Positions 45,623 to 53,895 of a stretch of 64,000 bases of DNA are shown piece by piece; within the stretch, counting starts at the first letter, position 1; every line of letters starts with the position of its first letter. The translations under genes and the position numbers were made by a program. The DNA is taken from NCBI GenBank assembly GCA_021325355.1, contig JAJPHI010000018.1, positions 1-64,000 on the forward strand. The letters are read 5' to 3'. This DNA comes from Pseudomonadota bacterium. Its GTDB lineage: Bacteria > Desulfobacterota > Binatia > Binatales > Binataceae. A model generated the notes under the pieces. It saw only the letters and a program-made list of their open reading frames with translations. It did not search any database and was not told where the DNA came from.

Positions 45623-45649
45623 ACGGTTGGCGCGGGACAGGGAGTGCGG

Positions 45650-47248
45650 ATGGCGAGCGAAACGGCAGGAAGCGTATCGGCGGAGTTATGGCCCTACGAT
45701 GAGGCGCGGCGGCTGAGTGCGCGGGTCGCCGCTTATCCGGCGGAGCGGGCGGTGGTGCTGCAGAGCGGGTTTGGGCCGTCCGGCCTGCCCCATCTGGGGA
45801 CCATGGGCGAGGTGCTCCGACCGTCGTACGTGCGGCAGGCGTTTTTGCGGCTGCAGCCCGCGCGGGCGACGCGCTTCGTGGTGTTTATCGACGACATGGA
45901 CGGTCTCCGCAAGGTTCCCGAGAGCACGCCCGGGCGGGAGGAGACGGCGCGCTATCTGGGCTGGCCGGTGTCGCGGATTCCGGATCCGTTCGGCGGCTGT
46001 CACGAGAGCTTCGCCGGGCACATGATCGCGCTGCTCGAGGAGTTTCTGGCGCCGGTCGAGGTCGAGTACGAGCTTTTGCGATCGAGCGCGATGTACGGGA
46101 GCGGACGTTTCGATGAGGCGCTGCGGCTTATCCTTGCGCGCCATCGGGAGATAATCGGGATCGTGGCGCCGACGCTGCGCGAGGAGAATCGCGCGCAGTG
46201 GTCGCCGTTCATGCCGCTCTGTCCGCAGTGCGGGCAGATCAATTCGACGCTGGTGACGGCCTATTATCCGGAGCGGGGGACGGTCGGCTTTGCCTGCGAG
46301 CGGAGTTTCGGCGGGGCGCGCGGCTGCGGTTATACGGGTGAGCAGAGCGTGCTCGGCGGCCGGGCCAAGGTGCAGTGGAAGGTGGACTGGGCGCTGCGCT
46401 GGCTGGTGCTCGGCGTCGACTACGAGATGTACGGCAAGGACCTGATCGATTCGGCGGAGGTTTCGGGGCGGATCGTGCGGCTGTTGGGCGGCGCGCCGCC
46501 GCTCGGCTTCGCCTTCGAGATGTACCTCGACGAGGAGGGGCACAAGGTTTCGAAATCGATCGGGCGCGGGGTGACGGTCGAGCAATGGCGGCGCTATGCG
46601 CCGATCGAGGTGCTGAAGTATTTCCTGATGCTGAATCCGCGGCGGGCGCGGAAGTTGTTTCTCGAGGCGATTCCCCAATACGTCGATGACTATCTGAACG
46701 CGCTGCGCGAATGGCAGGCGGGCGGGGAGGAGGCGCAGGCGCGATCGCCACTCGCCTTCGTGCTGCAGCGTTCGAGCGCGCGGCGCTTCAACAGCACGGT
46801 GGGCTTTGCGCTGATGATGAACCTGGTGCCGGCGGTCGGCAGCGACGACGCGGAGCTGCTCTGGCGCTATCTCGAGACCTACGACCCGCAAATCACCGCC
46901 GACCGCGAGACGGAGGCGCTCGCGCGGACGCTGATGGCGTGCGCGATCAATTTTTATCGCGATCTGGTGCAGCCGACGCAGCCGCGGCAATACACGCCGA
47001 CGGCGGCCGAGCGGGAGCAACTGGCGCGGCTGGCGGAGTGGCTCGAGGGCCATGGCGCGGCCGACGCGGAGACGATCGAGCGGACGATCTATGATTTGGG
47101 GCGGACGTATTATGACAAGCCGGGCAAGATTTTCCCGGTGATCTATCGGACGCTGCTGGGTCAGGAGCGGGGGCCGCGGCTCGGCGCGTTCATCCGGCTG
47201 GCGACGCCGGCGAAGATCGCCGAGGCGCTGCGCGCGCGGCTGGGCTGA
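45650..47248 (+). CDS. lysS: Class I lysyl-tRNA synthetase
   Basis: Charges tRNA-Lys with lysine. The 532-residue enzyme belongs to the archaeal-type class I family (LysRS1) rather than the common class II. The HIGH-like motif is GPSGLPHLGTM (about 42-52) and the KMSKS-like motif is EGHKVSKSIGRG in the middle. CPQCGQINSTLV and a later Cys pair form a zinc-finger-like insertion. I use the ATG at 45650, six bases after CAGGGAG; a GTG at 45644 is the only close alternative. Class I LysRS occurs in archaea, alphaproteobacteria, spirochaetes and scattered other bacteria. Confidence 0.93.
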   Translation: MASETAGSVSAELWPYDEARRLSARVAAYPAERAVVLQSGFGPSGLPHLGTMGEVLRPSYVRQAFLRLQPARATRFVVFIDDMDGLRKVPESTPGREETARYLGWPVSRIPDPFGGCHESFAGHMIALLEEFLAPVEVEYELLRSSAMYGSGRFDEALRLILARHREIIGIVAPTLREENRAQWSPFMPLCPQCGQINSTLVTAYYPERGTVGFACERSFGGARGCGYTGEQSVLGGRAKVQWKVDWALRWLVLGVDYEMYGKDLIDSAEVSGRIVRLLGGAPPLGFAFEMYLDEEGHKVSKSIGRGVTVEQWRRYAPIEVLKYFLMLNPRRARKLFLEAIPQYVDDYLNALREWQAGGEEAQARSPLAFVLQRSSARRFNSTVGFALMMNLVPAVGSDDAELLWRYLETYDPQITADRETEALARTLMACAINFYRDLVQPTQPRQYTPTAAEREQLARLAEWLEGHGAADAETIERTIYDLGRTYYDKPGKIFPVIYRTLLGQERGPRLGAFIRLATPAKIAEALRARLG

Positions 47249-50159: not shown

Positions 50160-51071
50160 TTAGCTGACCGCGGCGTAGACGTTGGCCGAGGTGACGTCGC
50201 GCAGGAGTGCGGCGACCGGTTCGTCGGCGACCACGATCGAAACGTAGTGGTCGGGATGGAAGGTCAGGCAGAGGCTATGGCCGGCGTATTCGTAAAAGGT
50301 ATGGGAGCCGGCCCAGTAACGGGCGCCGACGGGGGCATAGAAGTTGGGCGCGCGCAGGCAGATGCTGATGATCTCGCCGTTCTGGCTGCGATAGAGGGTG
50401 AAGGTTGCGGGGGCGCCGTCGTCGGTGCTGTCGATGCGGCCGCCGGCGAGGCGGTAGCCGGCGAAGTCGTAGACATCTTCAGGGACCTCGGCGTTGCGAT
50501 AAGCCTCGGCGAGATCGGCGACCTCGTCGGCGACGTAGCCGTGCGACTCCCGTTCGATGACCCAGGCGTAGTCGGCGCCGGCGCTGCTGGTTTCGACTGC
50601 GGCATTGGGGACGAATTCCTCGGCCAGCGCCTCATACTTGCTGACGGCATAGTCGAAGGTCGGGGTGGGCGGGACCGCGGCGAAGACCACGGGCGCGCCG
50701 GTTTGCCGTTTGAGGGCGAGGGCGAGGATGAGGGAGGCGGCGAGCGCGGCGGCGATACCGAGGGGCAGGCGGCGCCGCAGCGCGGCCGGACGGCGGGCGG
50801 CGCGGCGAATGGTCTCGCGCCAGGGGCGGCGCGGCGGCGCGTCGCTGATTTCGCCGAGGGCGGCGCGGATGCGCAGGCGCAGGTCGGGCGGCACCTTGCC
50901 GGGGGCGAAGCGGGTGCGGACGAGGGCCTTCAGGCGGCGTTCCTGGGCGAGCGCCGTACGGCATCCGGCGCAGCGGCCGACATGATCGTCGGCGGCGCGG
51001 CGGTCACGGCCGATGAGTTCGTCGTCGGCGTGGGCGGTGAGAAAGCTCTCGCGATATTCGCCGCAGGTCAT
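50160..51071 (-). CDS. Membrane anti-sigma factor with ZAS zinc-binding domain
   Basis: A 303-residue predicted anti-sigma factor. The N-terminal zinc-associated anti-sigma motif is complete: C3 and H30-V-G-R-C34-A-G-C37. A basic linker, one membrane helix (LGIAAALAASLILALAL, about 104-120) and an extracytoplasmic sensor domain of about 180 residues follow. It would hold the sigma factor encoded 67 bases upstream at the membrane until a signal arrives. The sensor domain ends in FYAPVGARYWAGSHTFYEYA and is not one I recognise. Confidence 0.85.
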   Translation of the reverse strand: MTCGEYRESFLTAHADDELIGRDRRAADDHVGRCAGCRTALAQERRLKALVRTRFAPGKVPPDLRLRIRAALGEISDAPPRRPWRETIRRAARRPAALRRRLPLGIAAALAASLILALALKRQTGAPVVFAAVPPTPTFDYAVSKYEALAEEFVPNAAVETSSAGADYAWVIERESHGYVADEVADLAEAYRNAEVPEDVYDFAGYRLAGGRIDSTDDGAPATFTLYRSQNGEIISICLRAPNFYAPVGARYWAGSHTFYEYAGHSLCLTFHPDHYVSIVVADEPVAALLRDVTSANVYAAVS

Positions 51072-51138
51072 GGTTGATCACCGCGAGTTAGCGCGGCGAG
51101 GCGCCAGAGATCCTGAGTAAGGCCGTGCCGGGCGCGTG

Positions 51139-51717
51139 TCAAGTGCCGGTTTTGGTCGCGGCGGAAGCGGCGAGGGCGACGCGCAGCAGGGCGCGGGCGC
51201 GGGAGACGCGGGACTTGACGGTGCCGAGCGGAACTTCGAGGACGCGGGCGGCTTCCTGATAGTTGAGTTCGTGGAGGTCAACGAGGAGCAAAGTTTCGCG
51301 AAAATCGACCGGGAGCGCGTCGACGGCGCGGCGGAGCCGGGCGGCTTCGGCGCGGTCAGCCAGCAGATCTTCGGGGCTGAGCGGCGCGGCGCCCTGGTCC
51401 AGACGGTTGCTTTCGAGTTCGCGTTCAAAGTCCTCGACCGTGGCCGCCAGTTGCTCGAACCTGCCGCGGCGGTAACGGGTACGAAAGAGATTGTACAGGA
51501 TGGTTAACAACCAGGCGCGGCAATTGGTTCCGCGCGCGAACTGGTAGAAGCATCGGTAGGCGCGCAGGACGGTTTCCTGGAGCAGGTCGTCGGCTTCGTC
51601 GCGATCCCGCGTAAGGCGCATCGCGGCACTATAGAGGGCGTCGAGATGGGGCAGGGCGAGCTGTTCGAATTCGAGCCGCCAGTTCTGCGCCGGGGGGTTG
51701 CGCATGCCATGGCTCAT
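51139..51717 (-). CDS. ECF-type RNA polymerase sigma factor
   Basis: A 192-residue extracytoplasmic-function sigma factor. Region 2 (about 15-85) includes LTRDRDEADDLLQETVLRAY and AWLLTILYNLFR. Region 4 (about 125-180) includes LPVDFRETLLLVDLHELNYQ and the recognition helix VPLGTVKSRVSRAR. It forms an operon with the ZAS anti-sigma gene downstream. A GGTAAC-like -35 (complement of 51739-51744) lies upstream and could be its own promoter. It is divergent from the bufferin operon 225 bases away, which it may control. Confidence 0.92.
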   Translation of the reverse strand: MSHGMRNPPAQNWRLEFEQLALPHLDALYSAAMRLTRDRDEADDLLQETVLRAYRCFYQFARGTNCRAWLLTILYNLFRTRYRRGRFEQLAATVEDFERELESNRLDQGAAPLSPEDLLADRAEAARLRRAVDALPVDFRETLLLVDLHELNYQEAARVLEVPLGTVKSRVSRARALLRVALAASAATKTGT

Positions 51718-51942
51718 AGCACGATCGCGGCGGGAGGTGTTACCCCGGGGTCGCGGTGTCGCAGAGGTACGCGCGGCGGCGGCGTTTGGATGACGGTGGC
51801 CGCGGGCGGCAATCCAGGGAGGAGGGGCGTGCGTAATGGAAGGCGCAAGCGTTGACTCGGCGGCCGATCAAGAGCAGTCAAAGAGGCTGACGCGATGCGG
51901 GACCGCGGATCGTCGCGAGGTTTCGGACAAGGAGCGAACAGG

Positions 51943-52200
51943 ATGGAGAAGACCAAGGTTGCAGGGGCGTTGCTGGCAGCGGCGGTGGGGATGATTTTCA
52001 CGGCGCAGCCGCTGCTCGCGCAGGACAGTTCGGCGACGCAGGTGAAGTGCGTCGGCGGCAACAGTTGCAAGGGGCAGAGCGCGTGTCAGAGCGCGAGCAA
52101 CAGTTGCAAGGGGCAGAACTCGTGCAAGGGCAAGGGCTGGATCATGACCTCGAGCGCGCAGGACTGCACGCAGAAGGGCGGCCACGTCGAGCAGCAGTAG
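51943..52200 (+). CDS. bufA: Bufferin precursor peptide (BufA-like, copper-binding RiPP)
   Basis: An 85-residue exported peptide: signal peptide about 1-26 (LLAAAVGMIFTAQPLLA), then a Cys-containing core. Six Cys lie at 36, 42, 48, 55, 61 and 75, with repeated SCKGQxxC units and a C-terminal GWIMTSSAQDCTQKGG. This is the hallmark of bufferin (BufA2/DUF2282-like) precursors, whose cysteines are converted to copper-binding thiooxazoles by the MNIO enzyme BufB with BufC. Both partner genes follow directly. ATG at 51943 chosen, with ACAAGGAG upstream; a longer in-frame ATG at 51895 would precede the signal peptide. Confidence 0.9.
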   Translation: MEKTKVAGALLAAAVGMIFTAQPLLAQDSSATQVKCVGGNSCKGQSACQSASNSCKGQNSCKGKGWIMTSSAQDCTQKGGHVEQQ

Positions 52201-52201
52201 G

Positions 52202-53083
52202 ATGGGGGTGACCGCGCCGGCGCGGGCGGCGCGGTCTCTAAAGATGGACGGCTGGGGTAGCGGCGGACTGGGCGCCGGGGTGGGGCTCCGGCGCGAGCAT
52301 TACGGCTACGTGCTCGAGAATCGGCCGGCGGTCGGCTGGTTCGAGGTGATAAGCGAGAATTTCATGGTTGAAGGCGGGCGGCCGCTGCGGGTGCTCGAGC
52401 AGGTGCGGGCGGACTATCCGGTGGTGCTGCACGGGGTCGCGATGTCGCTGGGGGCGAGCGAACCGCTCGACCTCGACTACCTGCGCGGGCTCGCGCGGCT
52501 CGCGCAGCGTTGCGAGCCGGCGTGGCTTTCCGACCATCTGTGCTGGACCGGGGCGGGCGGGCGCAATCTGCACGATCTGCTGCCGCTGCCGTTCACCGCG
52601 GCGACGGTCAAGCATGTGGCCGCGCGGATCGCGCAGGCGCAGGAGGTGCTCGGACGGCGGCTGGTGATCGAGAATATCTCGAGCTACCTGCAGTACCGCG
52701 AGTCAGAGATGACGGAATGGGAATTCGTGCGCGAGGTAGCGGCGGCGGCGGACTGCGGGATTCTGCTGGATATCAACAATATTTACGTCAATGCCTGCAA
52801 CCACGGCTTTGCGGCGCGGGAGTATATCGCGCAGATGCCGCGTGAGCGCGTGGTGCAGTTTCATCTGGCGGGTCATCGCGATTGCGGCAGTTATCTGCTC
52901 GACACCCACGACCAGCCGATTTGCCCGGAGGTGTGGCGACTGTTCGAGTACGCCGTGGCGCGGATCGGACCCGTGGCCACGCTGATCGAGCGGGACGACA
53001 ATCTGCCGGAGTTCCCGGAACTGCTGCGGGAAGTGGAGGCGGCGCGCGTGCGGTTGGCAGCGGCGGGCGGCGCGGGCGGATGA
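52202..53083 (+). CDS. bufB: MNIO-family (DUF692) iron oxidase BufB
   Basis: A 293-residue multinuclear non-haem iron oxidase that would oxidise Cys residues of the bufferin precursor. Metal-ligand motifs of the DUF692 TIM barrel are visible: VVLHGVAMSLGAS, WLSDHLCW, LVIENISSYL, ILLDINNIYVNA, VVQFHLAGHRD and TLIERDDNLPEF. The start could be the ATG at 52202 (right after the bufA stop) or 52244 (MDGWGSGG), which gives a more typical N-terminus. Its stop overlaps bufC in an ATGA. Confidence 0.93.
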   Translation: MGVTAPARAARSLKMDGWGSGGLGAGVGLRREHYGYVLENRPAVGWFEVISENFMVEGGRPLRVLEQVRADYPVVLHGVAMSLGASEPLDLDYLRGLARLAQRCEPAWLSDHLCWTGAGGRNLHDLLPLPFTAATVKHVAARIAQAQEVLGRRLVIENISSYLQYRESEMTEWEFVREVAAAADCGILLDINNIYVNACNHGFAAREYIAQMPRERVVQFHLAGHRDCGSYLLDTHDQPICPEVWRLFEYAVARIGPVATLIERDDNLPEFPELLREVEAARVRLAAAGGAGG

Positions 53084-53895
53084 AGCTCGCTGAGCTGCAG
53101 GCGTTGTTGTATCGGCTGATCACGGCGCCGGGCGGGGTGGCGGAGGGGCTCGTGGCGGAGCGCGGATTGCCGCCGGGGGGACTCGAGGAGTTGATTGTCG
53201 GAGATGCGCGGATGGCGGCGCGCGAGCGCGTCGCGATCTATGCGGACGCCTATTTCTATCGGCTGCTCGAGGTGTTGCGGGAGGATTATGCGGCGACGCT
53301 CGCGGTGGTGGGCGAGACGGCCTTCCACAATCTGGTGACCGGCTATCTGGCGGCGTATCCGCCGACCGCGCGAGTGATCCAAGAGGCCGGGCGCGCGCTG
53401 CCGGACTATCTGCGGCGCCATCCGCTGAACGAGGCGCGGCCGTATCTTGCCGAGCTGGCGGCGTTCGAGCGCGCGCTGAGCGAGGTCTTTCAGGCGGCGG
53501 ATGGGCCGGCGCTCGAGGCGGCGGCGCTCGGCGCCGTCGCACCGCACGCGTGGGGCGCGCTGCGGCTGCGAACCCATCCGGCGGTGCGCGTCCTGCGCTG
53601 CGAGTGGAAGGTTGCGGAGACGTATCGGAGCTACGAACGGGGCGAGGGGGTGGTGGCGGCGGCGCGCGGGCGGCACGAGCTCCTGATCTCGCGCAAGGAT
53701 GACCGGGTATTCTATCGCGAGCTCGAGGCGGGCGAGGGCGACGCCCTGCGTCTCGCGATGGGCGGCACGACTTTCGGCGCGATGTGCGAGGTGATCGCGG
53801 CGGCGCGGGGGGACGCGGAGGTGGCGGCGGTAATCAGTCGGCTTTTGGGGAGCTGGATCGCCGCGGGCGTGCTGAGCGCTGACGCACCGGCCTGA
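53080..53895 (+). CDS. bufC: DUF2063 partner protein BufC
   Basis: A 271-residue DUF2063-family protein. The N-terminal helical DNA-binding-like domain has IYADAYFYRLLEVLREDYAATL and VTGYLAAYPPTARVIQEAGR. The C-terminal half reads LLISRKDDRVFYRELEAG and would bind the precursor leader for BufB. It is translationally coupled to bufB. Its last 62 bases overlap the 3' end of the convergent accD gene. Confidence 0.92.
   Translation: MKLAELQALLYRLITAPGGVAEGLVAERGLPPGGLEELIVGDARMAARERVAIYADAYFYRLLEVLREDYAATLAVVGETAFHNLVTGYLAAYPPTARVIQEAGRALPDYLRRHPLNEARPYLAELAAFERALSEVFQAADGPALEAAALGAVAPHAWGALRLRTHPAVRVLRCEWKVAETYRSYERGEGVVAAARGRHELLISRKDDRVFYRELEAGEGDALRLAMGGTTFGAMCEVIAAARGDAEVAAVISRLLGSWIAAGVLSADAPA

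Follow-up and report, generated by a model that had tools for sequence, protein, structure and literature searches.

The 64,000-nt window analysed here, to which all coordinates refer, comes from an uncultured soil bacterium of the family Candidatus Binataceae (its own genome is designated G000) and carries on its plus strand the structural genes of a predicted bufferin system, divergent from a gene for an extracytoplasmic function (ECF) sigma factor which is followed by a gene for a membrane anti-sigma factor (50160-51717, minus strand; Table 1). Start codons were picked by rule or by eye. A first-pass annotation had described bufA (six Cys), bufB (DUF692/MNIO) and bufC (DUF2063) as a coupled operon lying 225 bases from an ECF sigma/anti-sigma pair, and the genes, their coordinates and the gap between the two units hold, with the BufA2 and BufB models scoring over their cut-offs. 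When read by eye, the six Cys of BufA lie downstream of a Sec-type signal, and BufB also matched PF05114 (367.8 bits, cut-off 25) and PDB entry 3bww (E 1.3e-49). The bufC product reached 40.7 bits with the HvfC equivalog model, under the cut-off of 142, and no DoxX gene adjoining the operon in the window was recognised by eye. A single base separates the bufA stop from the bufB start, bufB and bufC overlap by ATGA and, judged by its sequence, the segment 51943-53895 (+) is a tightly coupled Buf2-type bufferin operon, bufA2-bufB-bufC. The sigma factor matched Sigma70_r2 and Sigma70_r4_2, both over cut-off, and the NCBIfam sigma70-ECF model (82.8 bits, cut-off 42.9).

Table 1. Features of the divergent sigma/bufferin locus, with positions in the 64,000-nt window.
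Feature	Position	Strand	Description
Anti-sigma factor	50160..51071	-	303 aa; ZAS/ASDI domain at the N-terminus, then one membrane stretch and an outer domain
Outer (extracytoplasmic) part, residues 134-303	50163..50672	-	About 170 residues; contains Cys238 and Cys268; predicted RseB/MucB C-terminal-like fold at residues ~190-303
Hydrophobic, probably transmembrane stretch, residues 102-120	50712..50768	-	Located by eye; helix H105-123 in the model
ECF sigma factor	51139..51717	-	192 aa; start uncertain, 51717 or 51705
GTGCTATG element	51715..51722	-	Overlaps the sigma gene start codon; relatives have a similar element, nearly constant in its spacing from GGGAAC
Intergenic region	51718..51942		225 bases between the divergent units; neither unit with the kind of ECF box found in relatives
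bufA	51943..52200	+	Buf2-type bufferin precursor, 85 aa, six Cys; NF050166 (NCBIfam BufA2) 83.3 bits, cut-off 60
bufB	52202..53083	+	MNIO (DUF692) maturase, alternative start 52244; NF050167 375.6 bits, cut-off 310
bufC	53080..53895	+	DUF2063 partner protein; PF09836 57 bits, cut-off 27.2

The anti-sigma factor carries an HX3CX2C motif (H30, C34, C37) which is invariant in 17/17 aligned members of its family, and together with the hydrophobic stretch this bears out its earlier description as a zinc-binding (ZAS) membrane anti-sigma factor. The zf-HC2 model gave 14.8 bits with the window protein, under its cut-off of 22.2, and was found at E<=10 in all 17 family members with a best E of 6e-12. 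The family profile matched RsiW (1e-7) and RsrA (3.8e-6) in the PDB, and comparison of the fold of the ZAS domain gave Z values of 6.7 for RslA, 5.5 for RsiW and 3.9 for ChrR. By its motif, its N-terminal helical domain and its encoding beside an ECF sigma factor, the protein is a ZAS-type class I anti-sigma factor (ASDI).

The outer domain had been called unrecognised, which stands as far as Pfam is concerned, as no convincing match was obtained for this part in any of the 17 members, but a likeness of predicted fold was found. AlphaFold2 modelling with 16 relatives gave a pLDDT of 79.1 for the whole anti-sigma factor, and the outer part alone reached a pLDDT of 85.2 and a pTM of 0.82. When the outer domain alone was searched with Foldseek, RseB/MucB structures occupied ranks 1-10 (prob 1.00, E 2.9e-4 to 4.3e-3), with TM scores by query of 0.34-0.40 and rmsd values of 4.2-4.8. 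VIA-align gave Z 8.5 against RseB/MucB (rmsd 3.2, 96 aligned), a modest margin because best Z values of 7-8 are common and the best unrelated chain reached 6.8. At the sequence level, RseB was not among the matches of the outer-domain profile in the PDB, hhalign against E. coli RseB was not significant, and the PF17188 (RseB_C) profile had no match over cut-off in 143 Binatia genomes. Pfam, PDB profile, hhalign and genome searches thus gave no sequence support for membership in PF17188, and the outer domain, whose predicted fold is that of the RseB/MucB C-terminal domain, is classed as having an RseB-like fold and not as a member of that family. Within this domain Cys268 is invariant in 17/17 aligned anti-sigma factors, and 11 of them have Cys at both 236 and 278, whereas the remaining six have Ser at both positions and carry Cys238 instead; the window protein is of the Ser236/Ser278/Cys238 kind. 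Such covariation would be expected of a disulphide or of a metal-binding pair, and as it tracks subfamilies it may be one event.

The pairing of the two units was followed through related genomes, those that can be named being metagenome bins. A bufB gene was found in 33 of 41 Binataceae genomes, in 32 of them with a match over cut-off, and 35 bufB neighbourhoods besides that of the window were compared (34 over cut-off, the remaining one truncated at a contig end). Of these 35, 17 have bufA adjoining a divergent sigma/anti-sigma pair of that kind, with bufC recognised in 15 of the 17. A search of 148 Binatia genomes with the anti-sigma profile gave 25 matches above 250 bits, all in Binataceae, the next match having 199 bits, and 20 of these 25, the window's own included, divergently adjoin bufA. 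With G017, in which the anti-sigma gene is cut by a contig end, this amounts to 21 linked loci in 10 genera. Of the five matches that do not adjoin bufA, that of G004 and the second copy of G036 stop at a contig edge. Conservation of the adjacency in relatives, on which the first-pass annotation had made its proposal depend, is therefore observed, and because the divergent order recurs in 20 other loci, the arrangement of the window is more than chance. An ordinary locus with genes adjacent by accident and no regulatory link is very improbable; all that speaks for it is the motif missing from the window, and it is contradicted by the conserved divergent pairing.

Three genomes, G011, G016 and G038, keep bufA next to the pair but have no bufB alongside. 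In G016 and G011 (L184, L185, L034, L037), bufBC genes occur at another place together with a BufA of weak match (39 bits), and one maturase may serve both precursors. In 20 loci of other Binatia families (L204-L223), no ECF gene was detected within 2 kb of BufA2 with the window sigma factor as query, a search that could miss distant ECFs, and the nearest one lies about 2.4 kb away in L222. One of these loci, L214 (4567-6036, G465), holds BufA2 in a frame of ~490 codons, which might encode a fusion of a bufferin with a larger protein or be no more than an open upstream frame. A second ECF sigma factor, weakly similar and over cut-off for Sigma70_r2 and r4_2, diverges from bufA2 in G029 (L044 6290-7628) together with a short protein that looks ZAS-like by eye, so that ECF/ZAS pairs may have joined Buf2 twice.

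A promoter box of the ECF type, GGGAAC-N16-RRATTT, is conserved before the sigma gene of the relatives. A GGGAAC with a TGNTAT within 46-48 bases is present in 19 of 29 sigma-gene upstream regions (15 at 47, three at 46 and one at 48), and a conserved RRATTT stands between the two, 16 bases past GGGAAC in most rows. The ten regions lacking the pattern are those of the window, G020, G010, G027, G038 and five others. When both strands of the 20 linked loci besides the window were scanned (424,572 bases), the pattern occurred 16 times, once for each of the 16 sigma genes having it. Where GGGAAC at the usual distance was lost (the window, L064, L186, L190 and L191), the TGCTATG element is retained; it looks like the extended -10 box of a housekeeping sigma factor, yet it overlaps the sigma start codon in the window.

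A 42-position sequence model of the sigma-gene promoter was searched in 40 genomes of the family and its strong matches were mostly these same promoters. Among the matches listed, the sole one in G010 (E 0.0013) and the sole one in G009 (E 0.0077) precede a gene of the sulfite-oxidase family (PF00174). The G010 protein matched PF00174 and Mo-co_dimer and has a Tat-like start by eye. PF00174 gave 25 matches in 22 of the 40 genomes, and once six had been set aside, namely two fragments in G028 and four weak matches of <=132 bits, 19 loci remained. Among the 13 genomes in which the sigma pair occurs, the form GGAAC-N16-CGGTT precedes the PF00174 gene in five (G003, G009, G010, G033, G040), against none of the six without the pair; because this form was first noticed in G010 and G009, only G033, G040 and G003 are independent cases. 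Shuffling of the PF00174 upstream regions gave a mean of 0.0025 genes with the pattern and never more than one in 400 rounds. In 1,966,628 bases of fetched loci it occurred 15 times, several of these being the sites under discussion. The same form also precedes related ECF genes in another Binatia family (L198 ~257 and L201 ~6371, in G440 and G443), so that the recognition sequence may predate the pairing with bufA. Thirteen further candidate matches of the promoter model were looked at (E 0.04-1), and a few precede propeller-like genes. Weak boxes at L192 3730-3760 (E 0.99) and L257 4985-5020 (E 0.06) stand before secreted proteins which are similar to each other by eye and gave no Pfam match, and in G024 such a weak box lies right beside a paralogous ECF/anti-sigma pair.

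To the question of a common promoter motif, which the first-pass annotation had also set as a condition for its proposal, the regions upstream of bufA give a divided answer. Two motif trials were made, the first with the sigma-gene profile alone and the second after addition of the five PF00174 sites and the G027 sigma-gene site, bufA sites being kept out of the training. The first trial detected sites in 5/21 linked loci at p<=0.055 and in 1/16 unlinked loci. In the second trial, 7/21 linked loci had a site at p<=0.05 (Fisher p 0.001), and the controls gave 1/16 for unlinked loci (Fisher p 0.81) and 1/21 for antisense stretches (Fisher p 0.71), the latter being shorter, 140 versus 210 bases. 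This enrichment is modest, and the 21 loci are related and do not represent 21 independent events. The exact form GGAAC-N16-CGGTT was rejected as the general form before bufA, as it was found only in L042 (G010), with a GGAAT variant in L051. The single unlinked positive is G031, whose congeners G032 and G033 retain the pair, as if its site had outlasted a lost sigma factor. In all, candidate sites for a shared promoter were detected before 19/29 sigma genes, 5/19 PF00174 genes and 7/21 bufA genes; within the window, a shared ECF box was sought and found for neither unit.

Because its parts are comparable to those of the SigF system of Caulobacter, under another anti-sigma factor, promoter and bufferin type, we read the pair of the window, by analogy and as a reasonably probable interpretation, as controlling a metal/redox regulon of the periplasm to which bufABC belongs. 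Control of bufA by the adjacent sigma factor is likely, and the conserved pairing suggests, without proof, that a sigma switch turns the peptide on. A number of observations weigh against this reading. The window has no matching box upstream of bufA (p 0.26) and no GGGAAC box upstream of its sigma gene, the promoter model has no match anywhere in G000 or its congener G020, and the PF00174 homologue of G000 lacks such a site. No box was detectable before bufA in 14/21 linked loci, and several bufA upstream regions show, by eye, sigma70-like -10 hexamers instead. The pair is kept in G009 with no bufA or bufB match, and in G034 and G035, of one genus, it is kept apart from bufA with bufB elsewhere. 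Conversely, 16 Binataceae bufA loci are without the pair, and in G021, G022 and G031 bufAB stands directly behind a purF-like gene with the pair absent, an arrangement which looks like loss of the pair. The anti-sigma factors of G038 and G034, outside the 17-member alignment, have neither Cys236 nor Cys238. Finally, in a tree of 36 sigma factors the linkage label has to change five times, although the same tree speaks for the reading in that a branch with support 98/97 sets apart 26 sigma factors which include all 21 linked ones; a single gain followed by several losses or moves would agree with it, though this is not demonstrated.

The two units might instead be neighbours and not partners, the pair controlling itself and other envelope genes, for example that of the PF00174 enzyme, with the buf genes on their own housekeeping promoter and the locus inherited as a block. 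The contrast between a clear sigma-gene promoter and the bufA boxes missing from the window and from two thirds of the linked loci speaks for this, as do G009 and the flanking genes, whose names were assigned by eye: among the matches listed, a purF-like gene lies on the anti-sigma side in 15/21 linked loci and a GNAT-like gene on the buf side in 16/21. However, the sigma/anti-sigma/bufA unit persists amid other flanks and is found in at least three genomic settings. Again among the matches listed, the purF-like gene is missing from the window and G020, where accD-like genes flank the buf side, and G027 has no flank in common with the other linked loci; G038 combines the two, with a purF-like gene at one end and the accD-like flank at the other. 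In addition, bufA alone stays with the pair in the three genomes named above, bufA-side boxes are enriched with the pair and not without it, and a different ECF/ZAS pair adjoins bufA2 in G029. We regard mere neighbourhood as unlikely, though as a serious alternative to regulation of bufA by the pair.

Under the regulatory reading, the ZAS domain would hold the sigma factor at the membrane, and the outer domain with its conserved Cys would act as the sensor of a signal in the periplasm, probably an excess of copper or else thiol/oxidative damage, upon which the sigma factor would be released. The freed sigma factor would then transcribe its own operon, the buf operon and, in some relatives, the PF00174 gene. 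BufBC would modify the Cys of BufA ahead of export, the predicted product being a copper-chelating thiooxazole peptide, and mature BufA would bind copper in the periplasm; thiooxazoles are expected to absorb near 305 nm (PMC13097082). In a variant which overlaps with this reading, bufA is likewise under the control of the pair, but what is sensed would be damage to envelope proteins or oxidation of thiols and not copper. The RseB/MucB-like predicted fold of the outer domain, the PF00174 gene as a putative co-target and the profile match to RsrA, which has a redox role, point in this direction. On the other hand, a common fold shows no function, and in the available portions of the reports on Caulobacter SigF, which has comparable targets, the regulon is induced by copper, and its induction by Cr and Cd is independent of oxidants (PMC8224329, PMC3511200). 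We consider a signal other than copper possible, at somewhat less than even chances. With similar reserve we propose that these proteins may form a new copper- or thiol-sensing class of anti-sigma factors, in which a ZAS domain is joined to an RseB-C-like sensor with exchangeable Cys positions, and which would control Buf2 bufferins and an exported molybdoenzyme, independently re-creating the bufferin regulon run in Caulobacter by the unrelated NrsF.

Elsewhere in the window, at 45644-47248 (+), a long frame resembles by eye a class I (archaeal-type) lysyl-tRNA synthetase.

The anti-sigma factor of the window resembles the ZAS anti-sigma factors RsiW, RsrA, ChrR and RslA in its N-terminal domain, HX3CX2C motif and helical fold, and differs from them in its outer part and gene neighbourhood. 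To the RseA-RseB and MucA-MucB systems of envelope stress (sigma E and AlgU) it is linked by the predicted RseB/MucB C-terminal fold of its outer domain; in contrast to those systems, the domain is part of the ZAS anti-sigma protein itself, a fusion in cis, the large N-terminal RseB domain is absent and sequence similarity was not detected. If true, this single-protein build would offer a simple model for envelope sensing. No title or abstract describing a fused ZAS-RseB anti-sigma factor was found among open-licence PMC texts, which is not proof of its absence.

In Caulobacter, according to the available parts of the published work, SigF has two DUF2282/DUF692/DUF2063 operons under its control together with a PF00174 (YedY) gene, and replacing the two conserved, probably periplasmic Cys of NrsF raises the SigF regulon (PMC3511200); MsrPQ and the rest of this regulon are induced by copper, to which a sigF mutant is sensitive (PMC8224329). 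As far as these sources go, the present locus shares with SigF-NrsF an ECF/membrane anti-sigma gene pair near a buf-type operon, a promoter of the sigma factor's own (here the putative box in the window's relatives), a PF00174 gene as target (YedY/MsrP in Caulobacter, a putative target here) and conserved outer-side Cys in the anti-sigma factor; since Mo-co_dimer also matches it, the G010 PF00174 protein may be of another subfamily than YedY/MsrP. The promoters differ, GTAACC-N16-CGAA in Caulobacter and GGGAAC-N16-RRATTT or GGAAC-N16-CGGTT in the window's relatives, and the Caulobacter bufferins are Buf1 whereas that of the window is Buf2. That the anti-sigma factor is unlike the multi-helix one of Caulobacter, as the first-pass annotation had stated, agrees with the comparison: NrsF is a six-helix DUF1109 protein, and the window protein is a ZAS protein with one hydrophobic stretch (by eye) and a predicted RseB-like outer domain, PF06532 (DUF1109, NrsF) being absent from the families listed for the 17 members at E<=10. 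If the proposed regulation is true, two unrelated types of anti-sigma factor took control of comparable gene sets, and copper trapping and envelope redox repair would belong together.

Such peptides are said, in the part of the literature available, to be among the most populous classes of modified peptides in public genomes (PMC13097082). The accessible text of the survey by Antoine and colleagues places sigma and NrsF genes in Buf1, not Buf2, clusters and gives no switch for Buf2 operons (PMC12452194). Measured against that text, the locus resembles Buf2 (Buf_6/12Cys) clusters in its BufA2 precursor, MNIO and DUF2063 partner, and it is an exception because, unlike in the surveyed Buf2 clusters, an ECF/ZAS pair adjoins Buf2, which makes this conserved pair a concrete candidate switch for Buf2 operons.

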